Positions 1,538-62,470 of a stretch of 64,000 bases of DNA are shown piece by piece. The notes beneath the pieces were generated by a model, which worked only from the letters and a program-made list of their open reading frames with translations, did not search any database and was not told the origin of the DNA. The stretch covers positions 2,232,001-2,296,000 of the forward strand of contig CP079699.1 in NCBI GenBank assembly GCA_021383565.1, read 5' to 3'. A program made the translations under genes and the position numbers. The stretch comes from Levilactobacillus brevis (GTDB lineage: Bacteria; Bacillota; Bacilli; Lactobacillales; Lactobacillaceae). Numbering within the stretch: position 1 is the stretch's first letter; every line of letters begins with the position of its first letter.

Positions 1538-1668
1538 ACTGAAGGTTAAAAGCTAGGATCTGTAATGTGACGAGGATAATGCGATAGTCGCGTACTGACC
1601 GCCTTACCGTTCGCCAAATTTGGTCTGGATCGCTGGGGACTGGAACATATTCGCGAGCTTTCAACTAA
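1538..1668 (-). repeat. Miniature copy of the ~590-bp interspersed repeat
   Basis: About 130 bp. It starts with the terminal motif ACTGAAGGTTAAAAG (1538-1552), carries the block CCGCCTTACCGTTCGCC and the CAAATTTGGTCTGGATCGC segment, then jumps directly to the opposite terminus GCGAGCTTTCAAC (1653-1665). It is reverse-oriented relative to the copies at 27.8, 33.4 and 53.5 kb. The whole structured core is deleted and both termini are kept. Confidence 0.8.
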
Positions 1669-2266: not shown

Positions 2267-2300
2267 CTGGCTGAAAAATTGTCGATTTGGTGGTTACACT

Positions 2301-2465
2301 GGCCGTCTTACCGTTCGCCAAATTAACACGGTGGGGAGGACGGGAAAAGCCGAAGGGCGGTCTTTTCTCTCGCTTTGAGCCGCAGGTGGGGTTGATGACT
2401 CTTTTAATGGCGATAATCCCTGTCAACTGGGGATTGAAGCGTATTCGCAAACCTTCAACTTTCAG
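2301..2465 (-). repeat. Short deletion derivative of the interspersed repeat
   Basis: Carries GTCTTACCGTTCGCC, the GGTGGGGAGGACGGGAAAAGCC block and the CTCGCTTTGAGCCG block, then jumps to the other end of the element (GGGGATTGAAGCGTATTCGC) and closes with CCTTCAACTTTCAG. It is reverse-oriented. Most of the structured core is missing, and the CAAATTTGG arm is eroded to CAAATT. Confidence 0.75.
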
Positions 2466-2476
2466 TTAATTCAGCT

Positions 2477-5510: not shown

Positions 5511-5997
5511 GTCTGCCTTACCGTTCGCCAAGTTTGGTCTGGATCGCGGTGGGCAGGACGGGCCAAGCCAAAGGGCGTTCTTGTTCCTCGCTTTGAGCTG
5601 AAAAATAACGTCTCAAAGCCGCCATTTTCCAAGCAGAACCCTTGGAAAATCCCACGGCTGAGGCCAAATTTGACTCACTCACGGCTACCTGAAGAATGCC
5701 CAACTAAACTGGCCGAACGTTGCCACGCCAGCGATGTCGCCGCGCATCCAGTGGTTTTCAGCCATCGTAACCGGAGGCAGTTAGAGATGGAGGTAGCCGT
5801 GACAGCAGTGTTAGCTGAGCATCAGCTTACAGCGCGGGGCGTGTTTGGAGACTGGTGAACTTTGCCAGGCTTCAAACCGAGCCGGAGGACCGTTTCTCAG
5901 GCCGCAGGCGGTCCCCCGCCGGAATCTCTGGCTGCCGCAGGTGGGACAATAAGCCTTGCCAGCTGGAGACTTGGGCGTATTTGCGAATTTTTAACCT
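5511..5997 (-). repeat. Long copy of the interspersed repeat (reverse orientation)
   Basis: About 490 bp. In reverse orientation it contains GTCTGCCTTACCGTTCGCC, the invariant hairpin CTTGGAAAAT / ATTTTCCAAG with loop ggttctg (read on the minus strand), the GGCCTGAG / CAGGCC region and a degenerate terminus (GCGAATTTTTAACC). One arm of the nested core (near GAGCTGAAAAATAACG) has decayed. It fills the gap after the LacI gene. From 6061 to 6239 I see nothing else of note. Confidence 0.8.
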
Positions 5998-6012
5998 TTA
6001 ACAATGAGAACT

Positions 6013-13149: not shown

Positions 13150-13278
13150 CGAAAAAAGCCTGAGAAATGTTGTCGGCATGACAACATCTCCCAGGCTTTT
13201 TCCCTTCCGTGTCTACGGGTCCTCCCGTAGGTTCCCTCTCGGACCAGACCCGTGTGAACGGCGGAACCCTAGAGAACA
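13150..13278 (-). ncRNA. Guanidine-I (ykkC) riboswitch with terminator
   Basis: Read on the minus strand the leader carries the class hallmarks in order: CTAGGGTTCCG, GGTCTGGTCCGAGAG, ACGGG stems, then ACACGG-A-AGGGA. It runs into a terminator with arms AAAAAGCCTGGGAGATGTTGTC and complement (about 13151-13202) ending in a T run. In this class guanidinium binding stabilises the aptamer, prevents the terminator and turns on the exporter. Both downstream genes are SMR subunits, which fits. The aptamer covers about 13200-13275. Confidence 0.92.
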
Positions 13279-13499
13279 GAATATGCGATTGATTCGGTAG
13301 CGTTAGCTTAGCACGGATTGGTCAAAGTGGCAACCGGCAAGTGTGAAAACGGTAGGTAAAAGGTTTCACGTAAGGGGGATTTTGACCCCATAAGTGACCT
13401 TTTTCACTAAAAATCGGAATCGATTGCATTTCAGATATATCGTGATTTCGCCGCCTTTTCTGAAAATTTCCAGCGCAAAAAGAGCCTTAAATTCAGCGA

Positions 13500-13560
13500 C
13501 TGCGATGCTATACTGAAACCGATTTAAAAATGACTGGACTAGTCATTCATCGCTCAGCAA
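13500..13560 (+). promoter_or_regulatory. Promoter region of cassette 1, shared with cassette 2
   Basis: TATACT at 13509-13514 is followed by TGAAACCGATTTAA and then ATGACTGGACTAGTCAT (13530-13546), an inverted repeat. The same order recurs before cassette 2 at 16985-17026. Upstream (13390-13500) two further shared blocks stand out: ATCGATTGCATTT and TTTTCTGAAAA. No good -35 box is visible, so activation by a regulator is possible. The stretch 13279-13499 holds no gene. Confidence 0.55.
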
Positions 13561-13609
13561 TTAAGTGTCGCGGGTCACGGCCCCGCGACTAGCTATGGAG
13601 GTAGCGACT

Positions 13610-14485
13610 ATGCAACTCGGAAGTATTGAAGCGGGCGGCACAAAGTTTGTTTGTGCAATCGGTAACGAAGATTATCGTACGGACAATCGGGTCATCATCC
13701 CGACGACCACCCCGGAAGAAACGTTAAGTCAATGTATTGCTTACTTTAAACAGTATCCAGATTTAAAGGCCATCGGGATTTCATCCTTTGGGCCAATCGA
13801 ACTCCGGCGCAATGCACCCAAGTACGGGTACGTCACGGATACTCCGAAGCCCCATTGGTCCAACACGGATTTTCTGGGCCGCTTAAAGCAAGACCTGGAT
13901 GTTCCCATGGCCTGGACCACGGATGTGAACGGATCAGCTTACGGTGAATACGTGGTGTCCACACTGTTCAACGAAAAGATTGACTCACTAGTCTACTTTA
14001 CGATTGGAACTGGTGTGGGTGCAGGCGCCATCGTCAACGGAAAGTTCGTCGGCACGATGGGTCATCCCGAAATGGGCCACGTGCGGTTGAAACGCCACCC
14101 CGATGACTTGGACTTCAAGGGCATCTGCCCCTTCCATGGCGACTGCCTGGAAGGTTTGGTCAGTGGGCCAACGTTTGAAGCACGGCTCGGCAAGCACGGT
14201 CATGAAGTACCGATGACCGATCACGTTTGGGATATTATGGCCTATTACGTGGCGCAAGCGGCCCTGCAAGAAACGTTGATGCTGCGGCCCGACAAGATTG
14301 TCTTTGGTGGCGGTGTGGTCAGCGAAGCCTTCCTAGTGAAGGTACGTGCCGAATTTACCAAATTATTAAATGGTTACGTGGACGTGGGTGACGTGAAAGA
14401 TTATATCGTCATGCCATCCGTCAAAGAGAATGGATCAGCCACGCTGGGTGACTTTGCCTTAGCACTGAAAGAATACAACAAATAA
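13610..14485 (+). CDS. ROK family fructokinase, cassette 1
   Basis: A 291-residue sugar kinase of the ROK family, closest in motif to the YdhR/ScrK-type fructokinases. It has a phosphate loop GGTK near residue 9-12, catalytic Asp105 in TTDVNGSAYGE, GTGVGAG at 133-139 and a zinc site from His157, Cys173, His176 and Cys179 in GHPEMGHVRLKRHP and CPFHGDC. These features mark fructokinase (D-fructose to fructose 6-phosphate). I start at 13610, preceded by ATGGAGGTA; an upstream ATG-type start at 13565 lacks support. It heads a three-gene cassette with a polyol-type dehydrogenase and a membrane protein, so it probably phosphorylates the ketose made by the dehydrogenase. A near-identical copy lies at 17078. 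Confidence 0.9.
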   Translation: MQLGSIEAGGTKFVCAIGNEDYRTDNRVIIPTTTPEETLSQCIAYFKQYPDLKAIGISSFGPIELRRNAPKYGYVTDTPKPHWSNTDFLGRLKQDLDVPMAWTTDVNGSAYGEYVVSTLFNEKIDSLVYFTIGTGVGAGAIVNGKFVGTMGHPEMGHVRLKRHPDDLDFKGICPFHGDCLEGLVSGPTFEARLGKHGHEVPMTDHVWDIMAYYVAQAALQETLMLRPDKIVFGGGVVSEAFLVKVRAEFTKLLNGYVDVGDVKDYIVMPSVKENGSATLGDFALALKEYNK

Positions 14486-14505
14486 GAGAGGGAGAAATTT
14501 AACTT

Positions 14506-15507
14506 ATGAAAGCCTTAGTCCTAACTGGAACCAAGAAGATGGAGATTCAAGATTTACCAACGCCGGAGGTTAAGCCTAACGAAGTGTTAGTGAATACGGC
14601 CTACGCCGGTATTTGTGGGACTGACCGGGCGCTTTACGCCGGCCTCCCTGGTTCTGCCGATGCTGTGCCCCCAATCGTCTTAGGGCACGAAAACTCCGGA
14701 ATCGTTGCCGCTATCGGCAGTGACGTGACCAACGTGAAGGTGGGCGACCGCGTGACGGTTGACCCCAACATCTACTGTGGCGAATGCGAATACTGCCGGA
14801 CCGACCGTCCAGAGCTCTGTGACAACCTGTCTGCCGTTGGAGTTACCCGTGATGGTGGCTTGGAACACGCCTTCACTGCCCCAGCCTCAGTCGTTTACCC
14901 ATTGCCCGATAGCGTTTCCTTGAAGGCCGCTGCGACGACTGAACCAATCTCTTGCGCGGTCCACGGGGTGAAATTATTGGACTTAACGCCTTACCAAAAA
15001 GCTTTGGTCATCGGTGACGGCTTCATGGGACAACTCTTCGTACAATTATTGCAAGCTTACGGTGTCCACCAAGTTGATTTTGCCGGCTTAAACGATAAGA
15101 AGTTAGCCTTCAACAAGGAAAAATTTGGCGTGACGAACACCTTCAACACCAAGCGTGAAAGCATTCCCGCCGACTACGATGTGGTCATCGAAGCCGTTGG
15201 GTTACCACAAACTCAAGAACAAGCCGTTGAGGCCACGAAGAAGGGCGCCCAAGTCCTGATGTTTGGGGTTGGGAAGCCAGATCAGACGTTCTCCATGAAC
15301 ACGTACGAAGTCTACCAAAAGCAATTGAAGATTCAAGGAGCCTTCATCAACCCATACGCCTTCGAAGACGCGATCGCCTTGTTAGCTAGCGGCCAATTGG
15401 ATGTTGAATCACTCATCAGCCATGAAGTCAGCTTAGAACAAGTGGAAGATGTCTTGAACGGTAAGGTCGCAGGTGTCAGCAAGGCTGTCGTTAAAGTCAG
15501 TGACTAA
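14506..15507 (+). CDS. Zinc-dependent medium-chain dehydrogenase (polyol type), cassette 1
   Basis: 333-residue MDR-superfamily dehydrogenase. Catalytic zinc ligands are Cys37, His61 and Glu62 (GICGTD and GHENSG). The structural zinc site is Cys91, Cys94, Cys97 and Cys105. A Rossmann motif VIGDGFMG follows near residue 166. The length and zinc pattern resemble sorbitol/threonine-type dehydrogenases, and the partner fructokinase suggests oxidation of sorbitol or mannitol to fructose; another polyol is possible. It follows the kinase after 20 bp, with GAGAGGGAG as ribosome binding site. Confidence 0.88.
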   Translation: MKALVLTGTKKMEIQDLPTPEVKPNEVLVNTAYAGICGTDRALYAGLPGSADAVPPIVLGHENSGIVAAIGSDVTNVKVGDRVTVDPNIYCGECEYCRTDRPELCDNLSAVGVTRDGGLEHAFTAPASVVYPLPDSVSLKAAATTEPISCAVHGVKLLDLTPYQKALVIGDGFMGQLFVQLLQAYGVHQVDFAGLNDKKLAFNKEKFGVTNTFNTKRESIPADYDVVIEAVGLPQTQEQAVEATKKGAQVLMFGVGKPDQTFSMNTYEVYQKQLKIQGAFINPYAFEDAIALLASGQLDVESLISHEVSLEQVEDVLNGKVAGVSKAVVKVSD

Positions 15508-15526
15508 GTAAAGGTAAGGGATTATT

Positions 15527-16297
15527 GTGAAAGTAGAAGCAGCAACTGTTAACGAAGGGGCTGAGTCCGTGGAACTTGAAAGTGGTCGGACAATCTCGAT
15601 GTCTAAATCGATTGCCTACTTCGCCTTATCATTGGTGATTAACTCGGCGGGGAACGTGCTGACGCTGGTTACCAGTGCGAAGATTCACCCGTCCTTTCTC
15701 GGGGCGGCCTATTGGTCAGCGGCCGAAGCCAATCTGGGGACCGCATTTCACTGGAACCTCTTCTGGGCATTCCTGATCATGGGTTTCTTGACGGCGGTCT
15801 TAAACGCCATCTTGATTCATCATTGGGACTGGAAGCGGATCGCCGGGAACATGGTCTTCATGGTGCCGTTCTCCGCGTTGATTCAGGTCTTTGAAGACTT
15901 CTTTGATGGGAAATATCCGGCCCTGTTTGCCGGATTACCGGAGGCCCGCAGTACGGGGATGGTCATCCTCTACGTGGCGCTGAACTTCCTAGGTGTTGCC
16001 TTTATTGCCACCGCCATCTCCATTTATCAACGGGTCAATTTGGTCTTACATCCGGCCGATGATTTGATGCAGATTCTGCGGTTCCGCTACTTTAAGGGGA
16101 ACGCCGCTAAGGCCATGTGGGCATCCTACATTCCGCCGACCATTATGGCTGTTATCGCCATTGTGATTACCCGGTCATTTGTTAACTTTGGTTTGGGCAC
16201 GATTTTTGCCTTCCTGGCCCAAGGGGGTATCACCGGGATTGCGGATAAGACGATTTTTCCAAAATTAAAGCACCAAGCAGTCGATGTCGGTAAATAA
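15527..16297 (+). CDS. YczE/YyaS/YitT-like membrane protein, cassette 1
   Basis: 256-residue integral membrane protein with about five hydrophobic segments and the family-like motif VLHPADDLMQILRF near residue 180. The N-terminal 20 residues are acidic and cytosolic. The biochemical role of this family is not established. Its fixed place after a dehydrogenase and a sugar kinase in both cassettes makes uptake of the free polyol or sugar a reasonable inference. GTG start with AAGGTAAGGG upstream; 19-bp gap from the dehydrogenase. Confidence 0.7.
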   Translation: MKVEAATVNEGAESVELESGRTISMSKSIAYFALSLVINSAGNVLTLVTSAKIHPSFLGAAYWSAAEANLGTAFHWNLFWAFLIMGFLTAVLNAILIHHWDWKRIAGNMVFMVPFSALIQVFEDFFDGKYPALFAGLPEARSTGMVILYVALNFLGVAFIATAISIYQRVNLVLHPADDLMQILRFRYFKGNAAKAMWASYIPPTIMAVIAIVITRSFVNFGLGTIFAFLAQGGITGIADKTIFPKLKHQAVDVGK

Positions 16298-16979: not shown

Positions 16980-17030
16980 GATGTTATACTGAAAGCGCTT
17001 TAAAGGTGAACCGGCTAGTCATTCACAGAA
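16980..17030 (+). promoter_or_regulatory. Promoter region of cassette 2
   Basis: TATACT at 16985-16990, overlapped by TGAAAGCGCTTTAA and followed by GTGAACCGGCTAGTCATTCAC. The layout copies that of cassette 1, including CTAGTCATTCA. The central CG palindrome is suited to a LacI/CcpA-type protein; the LacI gene at 21135 is the nearest candidate. Confidence 0.55.
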
Positions 17031-17077
17031 ATTATAAGCCGTGGGTTAGCACTCAACGGTATTGGGAGGCAGTTAAC

Positions 17078-17989
17078 ATGCAACTCGGTAGTATCGAAGC
17101 TGGGGGAACAAAATTCGTATGCGCGATCGGTAATGAAGATTACCGAGTCCAAGACGAGGTGCGGATTCCAACCACGACCCCGGAAGAAACGTTAAGTAAA
17201 ACCATCGCTTATTTCAAGAAATTTCCAGACGTGAAAGCCATCGCGATTTCGTCGTTTGGCCCGATTGAATTGCGGCACAATTCACCCAAGTACGGGTACA
17301 TCACGGATACGCCTAAGAAAGGATGGGCCAACACGGACTTCGTGGGTCGGCTCAAACAAGATTTGGACGTGCCGATGTTTTGGACCACCGACGTGAATGG
17401 CTCGGCGTACGGCGAATACGTGATGTCGACACTGTTCAACGAAAAGATCAATTCGCTGGTCTACTTTACCATTGGGACCGGCGTCGGGGCTGGGGCCATC
17501 ATCAATGGCGACTTTCTCGGTAGCCTGGGCCATCCCGAGATGGGCCACGTCCGATTAAAGCGCCATCCCGATGATCTGGACTTTCCGGGAATCTGCCCGT
17601 TTCACGGGGATTGCCTGGAAGGGCTGGTCAGTGGCCCGACGTTCGAGGCGCGTGTCGGCAAGCCCGGCAAAGACGTGCCGCTAACGGATCACGTCTGGGA
17701 TATCATGGCTTACTACGTTGCGCAGGCTGCTCTCCAGGAAACGTTGATGCTCCGTCCGGACAAGATTGTCTTCGGTGGCGGCGTGGTCAGCGAAGGCTTC
17801 CTGGTGAAAGTCCGAGCCGAGTTTGCGAAGCTGCTCAATCACTACGTTGACGTTGGAAAGCTCACGGATTATATCGTGATGCCGGCCGTGAAGAATAACG
17901 GTTCGGCCACGCTGGGGGACTTTGCCCTCGCCTTAAACGAATACAAAAAATACCCCAATTGTCAAATCAAGTGCAACACAGGACAGTAA
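17078..17989 (+). CDS. ROK family fructokinase, cassette 2, C-terminus extended by IS30
   Basis: Paralogue of the kinase at 13610 with the same start (MQLGSIEAGGTKF), catalytic Asp, GTGVGAG loop and zinc motif. Most residues are identical by eye. The first copy ends EYNK; this one reads EYKK and then continues for 12 residues of IS sequence (YPNCQIKCNTGQ) because the IS30 element entered at the stop codon, changing TAG to TAC. The catalytic parts are intact, so activity may survive. The dehydrogenase and membrane genes now lie beyond 1.2 kb of oppositely oriented IS. TTGGGAGGC supports the ATG at 17078. Confidence 0.88.
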   Translation: MQLGSIEAGGTKFVCAIGNEDYRVQDEVRIPTTTPEETLSKTIAYFKKFPDVKAIAISSFGPIELRHNSPKYGYITDTPKKGWANTDFVGRLKQDLDVPMFWTTDVNGSAYGEYVMSTLFNEKINSLVYFTIGTGVGAGAIINGDFLGSLGHPEMGHVRLKRHPDDLDFPGICPFHGDCLEGLVSGPTFEARVGKPGKDVPLTDHVWDIMAYYVAQAALQETLMLRPDKIVFGGGVVSEGFLVKVRAEFAKLLNHYVDVGKLTDYIVMPAVKNNGSATLGDFALALNEYKKYPNCQIKCNTGQ

Positions 17990-19151: not shown

Positions 19152-19183
19152 AATACAAAAAATAGAAAGGGTGCGTTCGATTT

Positions 19184-20188
19184 ATGAAAGCTTTAGTCTT
19201 AACTGGAACCAAACAGATGGAAATTCAGGATGTTGCGAAGCCAGAAGTTAAGCCGAATGAGGTCTTAGTGAATACGGCCTACGCGGGAATTTGCGGGACT
19301 GACCGAGCCTTGTATGCCGGGTTACCGGGTTCTGCAAATGCCGTGCCACCCATTGTCTTGGGCCATGAAAATTCGGGAATCGTCGCCGCGGTCGGTCGCG
19401 AGGTGACCAACGTAAAGGTGGGCGATCGCGTCACGGTCGATCCCAACATCTACTGTGGGCAATGCAAGTACTGCCGGACGGATCGGCCAGAACTCTGTGA
19501 CAACCTGTCTGCCGTGGGGGTCACCCGTGACGGTGGCTTGGAGGAAGCCTTTACCGCCCCAGCTTCCGTTGTGTACCCGATTCCTGAAAGCGTTTCCTTA
19601 AAGGACGCGGCCACCACGGAACCTATCTCCTGCGCGGTTCACGGCATGAGCCTGATTGACGTCAAGCCTTATCAAAAGGCACTGGTCATCGGGGATGGCT
19701 TCATGGGTCAACTATTTGTTCAATTACTCCGGGCCTATGGCGTTCATCAAGTCGATTTCGCCGGGATTATTGACGAAAGATTAGCCTTTAACCAGGAAAA
19801 GTTTGGTGTTACCAACACCTACAATACGCAGCGTGATCAGATTCCGGCCGATTACGACGTGGTCATTGAAGCCGTGGGATTACCTGAAACACAGGAAGAA
19901 GCCGTTGAGGCCACGAAGAAGGGTGCTCAAGTCCTGATGTTTGGGGTCGGCAAGCCTAACCAGACCTTCTCAATGAACACGTACGAGGTCTACCAGAAGC
20001 AATTGAAGATTCAAGGCGCCTTCATCAATCCGTACGCCTTTGAAGATGCCATTGCCTTACTGGCCAGCGGCGAACTGGACGTAGATTCGCTGATCAGTCA
20101 TGAAGTCAGTTTGGAACAAGTTGAAGACGTCTTAAATGGTAAGGTTAAGGGCGTCAGCAAGGCGGTTGTCAAAGTCGGCAATCAGTAA
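19184..20188 (+). CDS. Zinc-dependent medium-chain dehydrogenase (polyol type), cassette 2
   Basis: 334-residue paralogue of the gene at 14506 with all zinc ligands conserved (Cys37, His61-Glu62, and four Cys in CGQCKYCRTDRPELC). It has the same VIGDGFMGQLFVQLL Rossmann loop. Its leader retains AGAAAGGGTG before the ATG, continuous with the end of the interrupted kinase gene on the far side of the IS30 element. Transcription now depends on read-through of the IS or on a new promoter at the IS end. Confidence 0.88.
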   Translation: MKALVLTGTKQMEIQDVAKPEVKPNEVLVNTAYAGICGTDRALYAGLPGSANAVPPIVLGHENSGIVAAVGREVTNVKVGDRVTVDPNIYCGQCKYCRTDRPELCDNLSAVGVTRDGGLEEAFTAPASVVYPIPESVSLKDAATTEPISCAVHGMSLIDVKPYQKALVIGDGFMGQLFVQLLRAYGVHQVDFAGIIDERLAFNQEKFGVTNTYNTQRDQIPADYDVVIEAVGLPETQEEAVEATKKGAQVLMFGVGKPNQTFSMNTYEVYQKQLKIQGAFINPYAFEDAIALLASGELDVDSLISHEVSLEQVEDVLNGKVKGVSKAVVKVGNQ

Positions 20189-20203
20189 AGGTGAGGGATA
20201 AAC

Positions 20204-20977
20204 ATGAGAGCTGAAGCAGTCAGTCATTTTAACGGCAACGCACATACCACGGATTTAGACAATACGGGACGGACCCTGTCGATGGCCCAGTCCATCGGGT
20301 TCTTTGCCTTATCAATTGTCGTCAATTCGGCTGGCAACGTCTTAACGTTGGTCACCAGTGCGAAGATTCACCCATCCTTTCTGGGGGCGGCGTACTGGTC
20401 GGCGGCGGAGGCTAATTTCGGTACGGCCTTTCATTGGAACCTGTTCTGGGCCTTCCTGATTCTGGGGTTCTTGACGGCGGCGTTGAATGCCGCTCTGATC
20501 CATCACTGGGATTGGAAACGGATTGCCGGTAACATGGCGTTCATGGTGCCATTCTCTGCGTTGATTCAAGTGTTTGCGGATTTCTTTAATGGCAAATACG
20601 CGCTGTTCGCTGGTCTCCCCGAAGCGCACGGCGCTGGCATGGTGACGCTCTACGTGGCGTTAAACTTTCTGGGAGTGGCCTTGATTGGGACGGCTATCTC
20701 AATCTATCAGCGGGTCAATCTGGTCTTACACCCGGCCGATGATCTCATGCAAATCCTGCGTTTTCGCTACTTCAAGGGTAATGCCGCCAAGGCCATGTGG
20801 GCATCATATATTCCACCGACAATCATGGCGATTATCGCCCTGCTCATCACCCATTCGTTCGTCAACTTTGGTCTGGGCACGGTCTTCGCTTTTCTCGCGC
20901 AAGGCGGGATTACGGGGATTGCTGACAAGATGGTCTTTCCCCACTTACACCATCAGAAGGTGGACGTGGGTCAATGA
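20204..20977 (+). CDS. YczE/YyaS/YitT-like membrane protein, cassette 2
   Basis: 257-residue paralogue of the protein at 15527. Transmembrane segments and the VLHPADDLMQILRFRYFKGNAAKAMWASYIPP region are nearly unchanged, while the first 25 residues differ. The strong conservation of the hydrophobic part across the duplication argues that the function is retained. AAGGTGAGGG precedes the ATG. It is the last gene of cassette 2 and is followed by a terminator. Confidence 0.7.
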   Translation: MRAEAVSHFNGNAHTTDLDNTGRTLSMAQSIGFFALSIVVNSAGNVLTLVTSAKIHPSFLGAAYWSAAEANFGTAFHWNLFWAFLILGFLTAALNAALIHHWDWKRIAGNMAFMVPFSALIQVFADFFNGKYALFAGLPEAHGAGMVTLYVALNFLGVALIGTAISIYQRVNLVLHPADDLMQILRFRYFKGNAAKAMWASYIPPTIMAIIALLITHSFVNFGLGTVFAFLAQGGITGIADKMVFPHLHHQKVDVGQ

Positions 20978-27562: not shown

Positions 27563-27782
27563 ATGGGACATCTCCTTCATCAATTATGAAAAAAAGGGAG
27601 CACTAACCGCCAAGTTAGTTCCCACATATGTAACATCCCTAATATAGCACTGCTATAAAACAATCACGTTACCGGGGCGTGATACTTTTTTGAAAAAAAT
27701 ATGATCATCTTGTGAAGTTGACCGCTTGGTTTAGACGCGAAGCAGGGGGCCGTGACGATCGCCTTTCAACTTTTAGTCAAAC

Positions 27783-28385
27783 ATCTAAGGGTTGAAGGTT
27801 CGCAAACATGCTCCAATCCCTAGCTGACAAAGTTTATCGCCATTAAACTAGTCATCAATACCACCTGCGGCTGCCAGAGATTCCGACGCTGTGGGGATCG
27901 CCTGCGGCCTGAGAAGCGGTCCTCCGGCTCGGTTTGAAGCCTGACAAGAATCGCCAGTCTCCAAACACGTCCCGCGGTGTAAGCTGACTCAGAACGTCAG
28001 CTAACACCGCTGTCACGGCTACCTCCATCTCTGGCTGCCTCCGGTTACGATGGCTGACAACCACTAAACGCGCGGTGCCATCGCTGGCGTGGCCACGTTT
28101 GGCCAGCTTAATTGGGTATCCCTCACGTAGCCGTGAGTGCGTCAAATTTGGTCTCAGCCGTGGGATTTTCCAAGTGGGTTACTTGGAAAATGGCGTCTTT
28201 GAGACGCGGGCTGCCGGCTCAAAGCGAGGGACAAGACCGTCCTTTGGCTTGGCCCGTCCTCCCCACCGCGATCCAGACCAAATTTGGCGAACGGTAAGGC
28301 GGCCAGTGCGCGATTAGCCTATTATCATGGATGGTATCCATGTCATACTACAGATTCTAGCCGCTTTCTAGCTTTCAACTTTCAG
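27783..28385 (+). repeat. Full-length copy of the interspersed repeat
   Basis: About 600 bp. Ends are ATCTAAGGGTTGAAG and CTTTCAACTTTCAGT. It contains a long hairpin GCGGTGTAAGCTGAC / GTCAGCTAACACCGC (27974-28010), the pair CAAATTTGGTCT and AGACCAAATTTG (28143-28154 and 28271-28282), and between them the hairpin ATTTTCCAAG-tgggtta-CTTGGAAAAT. AGTCAAACAT occurs on both sides. The rest of the gap 27563-28511 holds the ASST promoter region and, at 28463-28478, the inverted repeat ATGTTGTTTGCAACAT before the next operon. Confidence 0.85.
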
Positions 28386-28511
28386 TCAAACATAAGAAAA
28401 TCACAAGAAATGTTTAATTTAGCGTAAGGACGTTGCCGCGAGGTGGATGCTATAACTAGACTATGTTGTTTGCAACATCACACGATTTATTGAAAACAGG
28501 GAGGTGAGACC

Positions 28512-33136: not shown

Positions 33137-33382
33137 GAAATCGAGCAAAACATCGGCTAAATGGTCTGATCGTGCCCCGTCATTTATTACTAATGTAAAA
33201 AATGGCGATTTGGTTGCACAAATGGCCGAAATAATTGTCAAATTCGTTTTAATCATCTAATAGTTTGATGTGTTTATCGAAAGGCCCTGAAGAGAAATGC
33301 GTGTCGCTTGGCGTTTTTGGCTTGTAGGATCGAGCCATGACGGAGTGTGACGAGTGTTTCGACCTATGAATAATTTTGTATC

Positions 33383-33720
33383 TAAAGGTTGAAAATTCGT
33401 GGACACGCGGTGACACCGCTGGCGTGGCCACGTTCAGTCAGTTTAATTGGACACCCTTCATGTAGCTGTGAGTGAGTCAAATTTGGTCTCAGCCGTGGGA
33501 TTTTCCAAGGGTTCTGCTTGGAAAATGGCGTCTTTGAGACGTGGGCTGACGGCTCAAAGCGAGGGAAAAGACCGTTCTTTGGCTTTTCCCGATCCTTCCC
33601 ACAGCGATCCAGACCAAATTTGGCGAACGGTAAGGCGATTAGCGCGCGACTATCATAATTATGATGGATGTTATCCTTGTCACACTGCGGATCCTAGCTA
33701 ATTTCTAGCTTTCAACCTTC
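33383..33720 (+). repeat. Interspersed repeat copy with internal deletion
   Basis: About 340 bp. The left terminus ATCTAAAGGTTGAAAA is joined directly to GGTGACACCGCTGGCGTGGCC, losing about 280 bp of the left half. The right half is complete, with hairpin ATTTTCCAAG-ggttctg-CTTGGAAAAT and the CAAATTTGGTCT/AGACCAAATTTG pair, and ends CTTTCAACCTTCAT. TTTTGT occurs on both sides and may be a target duplication. The stretch 33137-33382 holds nothing else recognisable. Confidence 0.85.
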
Positions 33721-33742
33721 ATTTTTGTAGCCAATACCATGC

Positions 33743-47719: not shown

Positions 47720-48240
47720 ATCTAAAGGTTGAAAGTTCGTGAGCTCCCGTCCCCAGCTGGCAAGGCCTATTACTATTAAACAAGCCATCAACACCACCTG
47801 CGGCAGCCAGAGATTCCGGCGCTGTGGGGACCGCCTGCGGCCTGAGGAACGGTCCTCCGGCTCGGTTTGAAGCCTAGCAAAATTCGCCAGTCTCCAAACA
47901 CGTCCCGCGCTGTAAGCTGACTCAGGACATCAGCTAACACCGCCGTCACGGTTACCTCCATCTCTGGCTGCCTCCGATTACGCTGGTTGAAAGCCATTAA
48001 ACACATGGTGACAGCGCTGGCGTGGCGACGTTTGGCCAACTTAATTGGATACCCTCATGTAGCCGTGAGTGAGTCAAATTTGGTCTCAGCCGTGGGATTT
48101 TCCAAGTGAATTTCTTGGAAAATGGCGTCTTTGAGACGCGAGCTTTCGGCTCAAAGCGAGGGACAAGACCGCTCTTTGGCTTGGCCCGTCCTCCCCACCG
48201 CGATCCAGACCAAATTTGGCGAACGGCAAGGCGGCCAATA
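47720..48240 (+). repeat. Interspersed repeat copy lacking the right terminus
   Basis: About 520 bp. The left end ATCTAAAGGTTGAAAG follows the terminator directly. It contains the hairpin with loop tgaattt and the full CAAATTTGGTCT/AGACCAAATTTG pair, but stops after GCAAGGCGGCCAATACG; no CTTTCAAC terminus is found. 48241-48336 holds nothing recognisable. Confidence 0.85.
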
Positions 48241-48336
48241 CGATCGGGGATAATGGTGAAGACTATTGGTACGTACCTTACAGGCCCTATGAACTAGTAG
48301 TCAGCAGATGAAGCAAACTTTTGGTGGCCAATCTGC

Positions 48337-53457: not shown

Positions 53458-53537
53458 GGTAAAATTTTGCGAAAAGCTGCAACAAATTCCACTGAATTTA
53501 CATTAGTAGTAAGTAGGGGGAGGTTTTGGGGGAAATA

Positions 53538-54123
53538 ACTGAAGGTTGAAAGCTTGCGAACACGCTCCAGTCCCAGTTGGCAGGGCTTATCGCCATTAAA
53601 CTAGGTATCAACACCATCTGCGGCTGCCAGAGATTCCGGCGCTGTGGGGACCGTTTGCGGCCTGAGAAGCGGTCCTACGATTCGGTTTGAAGCCTAGCAA
53701 AAGTCGCCGGTCTCCAAACACATTTCGCGCTGTAAGCTGACTCGGAACGTCAGCTAACACCGCTGTCACGGCTGCCTCCGGTTACGAAAGATGAAAGCTA
53801 CCAAGTAGGTGATTACATCGCTGTAATGGCAACGTTCGGCCGATTTAATTGGACACATCTCATGTAGCCGTGAGTGAGTCAAATTTGGTCTCAGCCGTGG
53901 GATTTTCCAAGTGTTTTGCTTGGAAAATGGCGTCTTTGAGACGCGGGCTGACGGCTCAAAGCGAGGGACAAGACCGCCCTTTGGCTTGGCTCGTCCTAAC
54001 CACAGCGATCCAGACCAAATTTGGCGCACGGTAAGGCTGCCAGCACGCGACTATCATATTATAATAGACGTCATCCTTGTCATAATGAGGATTCTATCTA
54101 TTTTCTAGCTGTCAACCTTCAGT
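53538..54123 (+). repeat. Full-length interspersed repeat with clear terminal inverted repeats
   Basis: 586 bp, the best-preserved ends: ACTGAAGGTTGAAAG (53538-53552) and CTGTCAACCTTCAGT (54109-54123), 14 of 15 bases complementary. AAATA stands on both sides and may be a target duplication. Core: CAAATTTGGTCT 53880-53891 pairs AGACCAAATTTG 54012-54023; AGCCGT 53893-53898 pairs ACGGCT 53951-53956; between these lie hairpins ATTTTCCAAG-tgttttg-CTTGGAAAAT and CGTCT-TTG-AGACG. No convincing reading frame. Confidence 0.88.
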
Positions 54124-57521: not shown

Positions 57522-57623
57522 TTTGTAGGGCTGTGGTTTAGGTGAACGTGGTGAGCGGCGTTATTGTTGTGGATGATGGCCTAACGATTTTAAAACAAGG
57601 GGATGGGGTTGGAACTAATCGTG

Positions 57624-57655
57624 GCCTAGATTTCGCGAACGGCAAGGCAGCCAGC
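57624..57655 (+). repeat. Small fragment related to the interspersed repeat
   Basis: CCTAGATTTCGCGAACGGCAAGGC followed by AGCCAGCA. It has an inverted match at 62322-62354, closer to it than to the main family. Confidence 0.5.
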
Positions 57656-57690
57656 ACCATCAAACTGCAACGTCACCAACCACAATCGTG

Positions 57691-62287: not shown

Positions 62288-62321
62288 ACGGAACTGGTAG
62301 TTGACGCGGTGCCGGTGTGCG

Positions 62322-62354
62322 TGCTGGCCGCCTTACCGTTCGCGAACTCTAGGC
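62322..62354 (-). repeat. Small fragment related to the interspersed repeat
   Basis: TGCTGGCCGCCTTACCGTTC followed by GCGAACTCTAGGC, the inverted partner of the fragment at 57624. Confidence 0.5.
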
Positions 62355-62470
62355 TACGAAGTCGACTGATAGGTCAAATAGCGTTCGTGTTTGACCCAAA
62401 GGATGTTGCCTTACGCTACTTTTTCAGTTGGCCGCAAGCGGTAGGTTGTTTCAACCCCAATTGGTTAAAT

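Follow-up and report, generated by a model that had tools for sequence, protein, structure and literature searches.

A MITE-like repeat of Levilactobacillus brevis carrying twin structured modules in divergent orientation

Copies and boundaries of the element

The window, the whole 64-kb stretch of Levilactobacillus brevis DNA analysed here, contains five long copies and two small remnants of a gene-free, interspersed repeat of ~600 bp, located by BLAST with the 586-bp copy at 53538. Relatives of a protein encoded nearby agree with the genus, as 15 of their 18 loci carry the name Levilactobacillus, 2 'Lactobacillus sp.' and 1 Lactiplantibacillus. The host genome (2.68 Mb) carries whole or partial copies in at least 40 places; the 40 best of 158 candidate places were scored, and the 50 matches obtained correspond to these 40 places, the other ten being second pieces of copies already counted. 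A sequence-only reading of the window had listed five long copies and two short ones (1538 and 2301). BLAST and a 603-position profile made from 30 aligned copies recover all five near the positions given there, and the short ones are remnants of the same element at ~1539–1665 and 2299–2466. The features are as follows, with bit scores for the two module models (R1 and R2) described below.

53538..54123, +: best copy, both ends present, 586 bp (BLAST, profile)
53539–53552 (+) and 54109–54122 (−): terminal inverted repeats (TIRs) of the 53538 copy (motif positions), with AAATAA near both ends
53623..53786, −: module A (left) of the 53538 copy, − being the folded strand (R1 144.2 bits, R2 123.1)
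53874..54028, +: module B (right) of the 53538 copy, + being the folded strand (R1 40.5 bits, R2 85.0)
27785..28385, +: full-length copy with an exact 8-bp duplication, TCAAACAT (27777–27784 and 28386–28393)
27870..28039, −: module A of the 27785 copy (R1 184.1 bits, R2 163.5)
28137..28291, +: module B of the 27785 copy (R1 43.1 bits, R2 88.5)
27763..27776, −: solo element end, CTAAAAGTTGAAAG, adjoining the duplication of the 27785 copy on the outside
33382..33722, +: internal-deletion derivative, left end fused to the centre and right half kept (profile)
33374–33381 and 33723–33730: duplication of the 33382 copy, TTTTGTAT/TTTTGTAG, 7 of 8 matching
33472..33627, +: module B of the 33382 copy (R1 50.5 bits, R2 93.0)
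47722..48267, +: copy with its left end (47722–47735), right end gone (profile)
47803..47972, −: module A of the 47722 copy (R1 181 bits, R2 161.5)
48069..48223, +: module B of the 47722 copy (R1 47.7 bits, R2 95.4)
5511..6001, −: reversed copy, one end degenerate (5988–6001) and the other truncated (profile)
5776..5935, +: module A of the 5511 copy (R1 142.5 bits, R2 128.7)
5524..5678, −: module B of the 5511 copy (R1 25.4 bits, R2 70.3)
1539..1665, −: small remnant, bits of both element ends joined (BLAST, profile)
2299..2466, −: remnant, left tip with TIR (2452–2465) plus part of module B (BLAST, profile)

The ends proposed from the sequence to be inverted are 14-bp TIRs, CTRAAGGTTGAAAG, common to the copies. 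The end motif CTNAAGGTTGAAAG, with at most one mismatch, occurs at 78 sites in the host genome, against 3 for a reversed control pattern. Profile matches begin at position 2 and finish at position 602 of 603 in many copies, which defines a sharp common boundary. The solo end at 27763..27776 is probably a remnant of an older insertion; an element remnant also lies at the corresponding sister-species site (L135).

Exact 7–8 bp or 7-of-8 duplications abut the ends of 11 of 23 host-genome copies, a count for which a few ends were positioned manually; the other 12 show no duplication or a shorter match only. Examples besides the 27785 copy are TTATTTAT (L011), CTACATAA (L012) and TTATTAGC (L027), and 8-bp duplications also flank copies in the sister species G017 (TGCCACGA and ATAGATAG) and a copy in G003 (TTGTTTAA). 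An AAATA target duplication had been suggested for the 53538 copy: a short repeat is indeed there, in the form of a 6-bp AAATAA with a one-base offset on one side. Similarly, the TTTTGT flanks reported at 33383 correspond to the 7-of-8 pair listed above.

Several host-genome copies have an internal deletion that removes profile positions ~90 to 240, which is most of module A, and copy L031 is without most of module B. At least the copies that have lost module A are therefore dispensable as pairs. The 586-bp copy has no match among plasmid and phage records, and a 45-nt end consensus gave only seven chance-like matches among plasmids; an origin from a plasmid or phage was rejected on the failure of the 586-bp copy to match either record set.

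The window holds some other repeated or structured sequences. A second short repeat (TTACATTAGTARTAAGTAGGG) lies beside several copies (window 53480–53530 and the flanks of L009 and L025), and the L009-flank stretch holding it (query ~1584–1639) has about a dozen further places in G017. Another short repeat, ATAGCCGAAACGTGCGCCAA, is found near element ends in the right flank of L011 (query 690–741) and at L135, and in more than 10 places in G017. A 39-bp inverted pair at 57619–57657 and 62321–62359 is 90% identical; part of it matches element positions ~482–511, making these tiny element fragments. A Guanidine-I riboswitch is present at 13186–13283 (−; 84.5 bits, Rfam), and two pairs of direct repeats (13504–14484 with 16980–17952, 75%; 14472–16260 with 19152–20940, 78%) look like a duplicated gene block.

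Fold, arrangement and distribution of the twin modules

Full copies hold two homologous, branched modules of ~150 nt on opposite strands, with their 5′ ends facing each other and their 3′ ends directed outward. The modules make up the two parts of the conserved interior (profile positions ~77–262 for A and ~344–524 for B), and they share a fold composed of a long closing stem and three hairpins. What had been described as a long and highly structured interior is thus two copies of one conserved structured module, which reaches far beyond the species. Homology of A and B is indicated by both models. R1, built from 29 A (left) modules only, finds four of the window B modules at full length on the opposite strand with 40–50 bits; the fifth scores 25 bits, not above the opposite-strand ghost of an A module (25.6). 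R2, trained from an alignment (A2) in which B modules are included, scores all five window B modules at 70–95 bits, against 20 for the best ghost.

Covariation supports both the predicted fold and the strand assigned to it. RNAalifold identifies many covarying pairs on either strand among 86 A and 79 B sequences. Among pairs common to both strand predictions and read on the + strand, G–T and A–C mismatches number 83 and 204 in A, and 109 and 54 in B; the corresponding counts for host-genome copies alone are 30 and 79 (A), and 57 and 38 (B). This opposite bias argues against a general mutation bias and indicates that A folds on the − strand and B on the + strand. In the 29 sequences of alignment A1, which were aligned without a structure model, 33 of 48 pairs have two-sided changes. 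Alignments A2 (67 modules) and A3 (54 modules from other genera) were fitted to the model and so lean toward its structure; in each, 44 of 48 pairs are changed on both sides. For A2, which includes many R1 training sequences, 96.2% of cells are paired, two-sided changes occupy 718 cells (184.1 when shuffled), and the covariation score is 0.598, compared with 0.179 for shuffled and at most 0.092 for slid controls. For A3, in which one entry is an opposite-strand ghost (L211 16876–17038 −) and three modules are also in A2, leaving 50 new ones, the values are 678 cells versus 175.8 shuffled and a score of 0.695 versus 0.182 shuffled and at most 0.099 slid. G–U pairs outnumber A–C mismatches on the folded strand of A3 (85 and 37). 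At loci in G118 and G125 (L118, L119, L123, L124, L127, L144 and L145) we observed a shorter module in which the third hairpin is absent.

A known RNA family was considered and rejected: with Rfam 15 at gathering scores, no match was found in the elements of the window and of 12 loci, and in three elements scanned at permissive thresholds the matches were all weak, far below the gathering scores. The modules also lack a conserved coding frame, as their lengths are scattered modulo 3 (17/20/30 of the 67 A2 modules and 15/23/16 of the 54 in A3); no frame stays open in more than 22 of the 67 or 10 of the 54. The earlier statement that the element encodes no transposase agrees with this. Many A modules have a ribosome-binding-like GGAGG followed by GTG at the 5′ end. 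A coding origin was nonetheless rejected, because the GTG frame reaches the module end without a stop in just 28 of 64 cases in A2 and 6 of 50 in A3, and also because of the scattered lengths.

The divergent layout predominates among closely spaced modules. Among neighbouring modules no more than 500 bp apart (a chosen limit), counted manually with duplicate loci and ghosts left out, 40 of 46 pairs diverge and none converge; many of these pairs are not independent, since they represent the same element in several copies. One set of loci, the window included, contributes 24 divergent, 5 same-strand and 0 convergent pairs, and a second set contributes 17 divergent (one of them, L138, already counted), 1 same-strand and 0 convergent. 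Same-strand neighbours are confined to groups of three or four modules, in which the order is still − then +. Clusters of the type − − + + or similar are seen at L048 (6309–7055), L092, L093, L139 and L221 (17038–17914), and such clusters suggest that modules were duplicated locally with the outward orientation preserved. Convergent neighbours that belong to separate elements are found at distances above 1 kb (L016, L111), and single modules exist as well.

The 586-bp copy matches 18 of 40 genomes when searched across relatives: the host, 16 of 23 relatives of the same genus, and one marginal case outside it (E 2e-4). Model R1 is positive in 5 of 198 genomes of the order, host included, and one of these, G158 (E 2.3e-4, 28 bits), is from a different family. 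With R2 the module is found in 92 of 301 Lactobacillaceae genomes, host included, and in 13 of 40 genera; 65 of these 92 genomes have at least nine places each, and Lactiplantibacillus mudanjiangensis (L052) is among the carriers. Across the class, R2 is positive in 1 of 398 genomes, which is the host genome. Nine modules lie in the 64 kb of the window, which, extrapolated as if the window were typical, would amount to hundreds of modules per genome. In genus g82, two of six pairs (the first pair of L207, and L225) have CTAAAGGT/CTGAA-type ends by eye, one of them with an 8-of-9 duplication; ends of this type were not found in the other four g82 pairs or in seven g22 pairs. In G187, from another genus, a repeated unit ends near the 3′ ends of the modules.

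In the species examined, the modules are much better conserved than the DNA separating them. Pairwise diversity among 57 copies from the host and G017 is 0.099 in each module, 0.22–0.25 in the tips and centre, and 0.15–0.18 in the TIRs. Module identity in G023 copies is 0.943 and 0.888, compared with 0.635 for the centre, and the tips are nearly unalignable; in G019, G011, G003 and G010 the modules are 0.87–0.96 identical and the centre 0.45–0.75, with a G003 left tip still at 0.88. These five-species values come from 3–5 copies each, selected for their similarity to the window copy, a choice biased toward well-preserved modules. The pattern suggests that the modules are under constraint. Private changes per base are 0.007–0.018 both in and outside the modules in the 57-copy set (0.026 in the right TIR), and ~3–4 times rarer in modules than in tips in a 15-copy G017 set. 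We set aside neutrality after insertion as a conclusion from private changes, as the tips are probably saturated.

Relative to genes, 19 of 40 host-genome copies lie between convergent genes, 17 between tandem and 4 between divergent genes, as judged with a simple ORF caller; window intergenic spaces of more than 50 bp, including those with copies, number 8 convergent, 15 tandem and 11 divergent. In other genera, the 34 placed units divide into 11 convergent, 19 tandem and 4 divergent (one further unit is unplaced), compared with 27, 95 and 40 for 162 module-free intergenic spaces. Terminator-like hairpins occur in the flanks of 9 of 40 copies versus 30 of 336 intergenic windows; among controls, they occur in 13 of 52 windows placed directly behind stop codons and in 1 of 40 flanks after shuffling. 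Targeting of terminators was rejected, since flank hairpins are as common as after any stop codon, and their presence is accounted for by the location past gene ends. The promoter signal of the sequence separating the modules (8.0 and 7.9) is not above that of shuffled sequence (7.7), so a transcript of the element's own is unsupported.

Empty sites and candidate IS4-family helpers

Insertion sites were compared between the host and the sister species G017, using the flanks of seven G017 copies against the host genome and those of seven host copies against G017; ten of these 14 sites were also aligned. A one-piece match across the junction is found at four of the 14: L063 and L059 are empty in the host, and L012 and L004 are empty in G017. 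Two sites (L011, L057) have no element-sized insert and a gapped match, three (L062, the 27785 copy and L007) hold element remnants at the partner site, and the other five (L009, L019, L060, L061 and L066) gave no call. Empty sites therefore exist in both directions between the two species. Of 15 G017 copies retrieved, five occupy the same site as a host-genome copy, as judged by flank similarity, and L056/L112 may be a sixth shared site in which the module type differs. Within the five site-sharing pairs, copies are no closer to their counterpart than to other copies, as could result from bursts or gene conversion rather than from selection acting on every copy.

The transposase family PF01609 was sought in 24 genomes of the genus as a possible source of mobility, and 16 were positive. 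The 30 loci taken from them were scanned for the element end motif with up to three mismatches. The scan returned many single, chance-like sites, and inward pairs around the transposase at three loci. The 1562-bp insertion sequence at L161 (G010) has CTGAAACTTGAAAG at both ends, L177 (G019) has the same ends with one change in one of them, and a decayed insertion sequence at L172 (G009) ends in CTAAGGGTTGAAAG/CTAACCGTTGAAAG; a duplication was sought at these three chromosomal loci and none was found. The L161 protein belongs to NCBIfam NF049925, an IS4 family (E 2e-139). Its relatives occur in 7 of the 24 genomes of the genus, with no match in the host genome at E ≤ 1e-20, and in 195 plasmid records, of which 178 have less than 60% identity.

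Twelve plasmid relatives were searched for any ends with an exact 7–9 bp duplication, without assuming the motif. Four have exactly CTGAAACTTGAAAG at both ends with 8–9 bp duplications, and in a fifth, one end departs from CTGAAACTTGAAAG at one position and the duplication measures 7 bp; the duplications are TCAATATT, ATTAAAAG, TAAGACAA, ACATAACAA and TTACTAA. L191 ends in CTAAACCGTGAAAG/CTAAGTCGTGAAAG and L192 has yet other ends. In five of the 12, no ends with an exact duplication were found, a result compatible with the same ends lacking a duplication. NF049925-type transposases are thus found on insertion sequences in both the genomes and the plasmids of lactobacilli.

The element ends are the same as CTGAAACTTGAAAG at 12 of 14 positions, the two internal letters that differ being GG versus AC, and the same as one end of the G009 copy at 13 of 14. 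The duplication size is also that of NF049925-type insertion sequences (7–8 bp), and one IS4 subgroup is described with 7–8 bp duplications. Based on these nearly matching ends and the duplication size, we infer that the element has been moved in trans by NF049925-type IS4-family transposases. Two observations count against a precise assignment of the helper: the absence of this transposase from the host genome, and the GG/AC difference in the ends. A search for full-length transposons with the element's ends had been suggested from the sequence; the insertion sequences found have ends that are nearly, not fully, the same. No end pairs spanning an intact insertion sequence were seen in the site lists of the host genome, G017 and G003, where G017 consists of about 120 contigs with several sites near contig ends, so that an autonomous copy could be missed there. 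One autonomous-element candidate (L096) was rejected as two partial elements.

Taken together, common inverted ends, 7–8 bp duplications, empty sites and near-matching IS4-type ends make a MITE mobilised in trans the best reading, and the sequence-only reading of a non-autonomous, MITE-like element holds. The shared boundary and the empty orthologous sites are the opposite of the two outcomes it had named as damaging. Of its two proposals for spread, mobilisation in trans fits these results, and recombination is unneeded for these insertions.

Models for the module pair and comparison with known systems

The element has CTRAAGGTTGAAAG ends, no gene, and a payload of two homologous ~150-nt modules; we propose that it is a MITE carried in trans by an NF049925-type IS4 transposase and that the modules work as RNA. 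Because the element lies mostly just past gene ends, read-through from either neighbour into a full copy would meet exactly one module in sense. Once in a transcript, the module might form a compact 3′ structure, for example one that shields the upstream message from 3′ decay; alternatively, it could be excised as a small RNA. With the modules paired as mirror images, any such effect would not depend on the orientation in which the element inserted. We put the probability of this explanation as a whole at roughly 0.55. Movement by an IS4-type transposase is the proposed step with the most support. A role of the modules as RNA in transcripts past gene ends is suggested by their position, arrangement and strand, although the mismatch strand preference could also come from folded single-stranded DNA.

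In the main rival, which we consider unlikely, the modules would be folded single-stranded DNA, serving as strand-specific extended ends for the transposition machinery. In a variant, the pair represents the two ends of an older transposon. On either view, the modules would be conserved since source copies need them for movement. The pair is symmetric relative to the element ends, the repeated unit in G187 ends near the 3′ ends of the modules, and Narunsky et al. (2024) note for one repeated motif, MRSC-65-2, that the structure may matter as DNA (PMC11109978). The similar rates of private changes in and outside the modules of the 57 copies would be expected if only source copies were constrained. 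However, the IS4-type element is 1562 bp long with a 1455-bp reading frame and has no room for modules, so the transposase needs none on its own element. The modules also persist in species whose element tips are largely degraded, and the rarity of private changes in modules relative to tips in the 15 G017 copies is at odds with constraint on source copies alone.

The remaining alternatives concern whether the fold has a function and how it would be expressed. A plain MITE with a palindromic interior, in which the fold is a functionless by-product of inverted duplication followed by recent spread and gene conversion, would account for A and B being homologous inverted copies, for site-sharing copies in sister species being no more alike than others, and for the frequent internal deletions. 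We regard it as very improbable, because each module folds by itself and, across divergent genera, shows covariation well beyond that of the shuffled and slid controls; moreover, conservation drops at the module borders and the centre has decayed, which gene conversion alone would not predict. It is scarcely less doubtful that the modules are independently expressed, trans-acting small RNAs that run outward from the centre and end in the neighbours' terminators. The divergent layout with facing 5′ ends, the gaps between model matches of down to ~50 bp in g82 and g22, and the location of copies close to the 3′ ends of genes, a setting rich in terminator-like hairpins, fit this reading, but the centre has no promoter signal and is poorly conserved (pi 0.24, versus 0.10 in the modules).

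A more specific form of the RNA reading is that the modules are an unnamed Lactobacillaceae RNA class, very numerous in each genome and forming divergent twins when adjacent, which was spread by IS4-type MITEs, is retained by selection on many single copies and would even out the 3′ transcript ends of the two neighbouring genes at any landing site; we offer this only tentatively, as possible and somewhat short of probable. If the proposal is correct, a structured sequence that is very common in a large group of food and gut bacteria is still without a name, and a transposon family is tied to a fold that is strongly conserved and whose mirror-image layout is fixed. Natural insertions are plentiful, and at some of them the sister site is empty; they provide a setting in which to gauge the effect on neighbouring transcripts, and they raise the question of why the fold comes as outward-facing twins.

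Within titles and the openings of abstracts, a literature sample of incomplete coverage, we found no description of this repeat or fold in lactobacilli. A study of 104 RNAs reports structured motifs restricted to Lactobacillales, such as Lacto-int, which is listed for Lactobacillales and phages and has no Rfam number, so that Rfam scans may miss it (PMC2864571). Lactobacillales motifs with an Rfam number are covered by our Rfam scans; Lacto-int is compared here through its published description alone, and it is recorded in phages, in contrast to the 586-bp copy, which is unmatched in phage records. Lac-1, a structured family in L. johnsonii, is likewise represented here by its description alone (PMC2267715). 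MRSC motifs such as MRSC-65-2 are structured, present in many copies per genome, judged to be mobile and found in diverse phyla (PMC11109978). The element resembles them, by description, in being structured, multicopy and mobile; the term 'Lactobac' is absent from the main text of that study (PMC11109978).

The interspersed intergenic repeats bcr1–bcr18 of the Bacillus cereus group include three (bcr1–3) described as MITE-like; bcr1 is rated as structured, the folds of bcr10 and bcr18 are conserved, and copies are seen in transcripts (84 of 165 and 62 of 155), according to the portions of these reports that describe them (PMC3446304, PMC2267715). The likeness is again one of description, and there are differences: bcr1 is ~147–167 bp, and a divergent branched pair is unmentioned in those portions. 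BIMEs consist of REP units in inverted pairs, and BOX, RUP and SPRITE are far shorter than the element; we know of no inverted pair of branched modules in these last three. REP repeats are described as structured extragenic palindromes of 20–40 bp with suggested roles in termination and mRNA stabilisation (PMC3733652), and BOX, RUP and SPRITE of Streptococcus pneumoniae as small interspersed repeats, some with RNA-like motifs (PMC10969869, PMC3049150). The element differs from REP and BIME repeats, which are RAYT-associated, in having ~150-nt branched modules within a MITE with 7–8 bp duplications. In a casual comparison with the IS4-type insertion sequence, no common sequence was noticed beyond the ends. 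With IS4-derived MITEs the element shares inverted ends, 7–8 bp duplications, lack of coding capacity and many copies; it differs from them in carrying a structured pair, whose module occurs in 13 of the 40 genera sampled.
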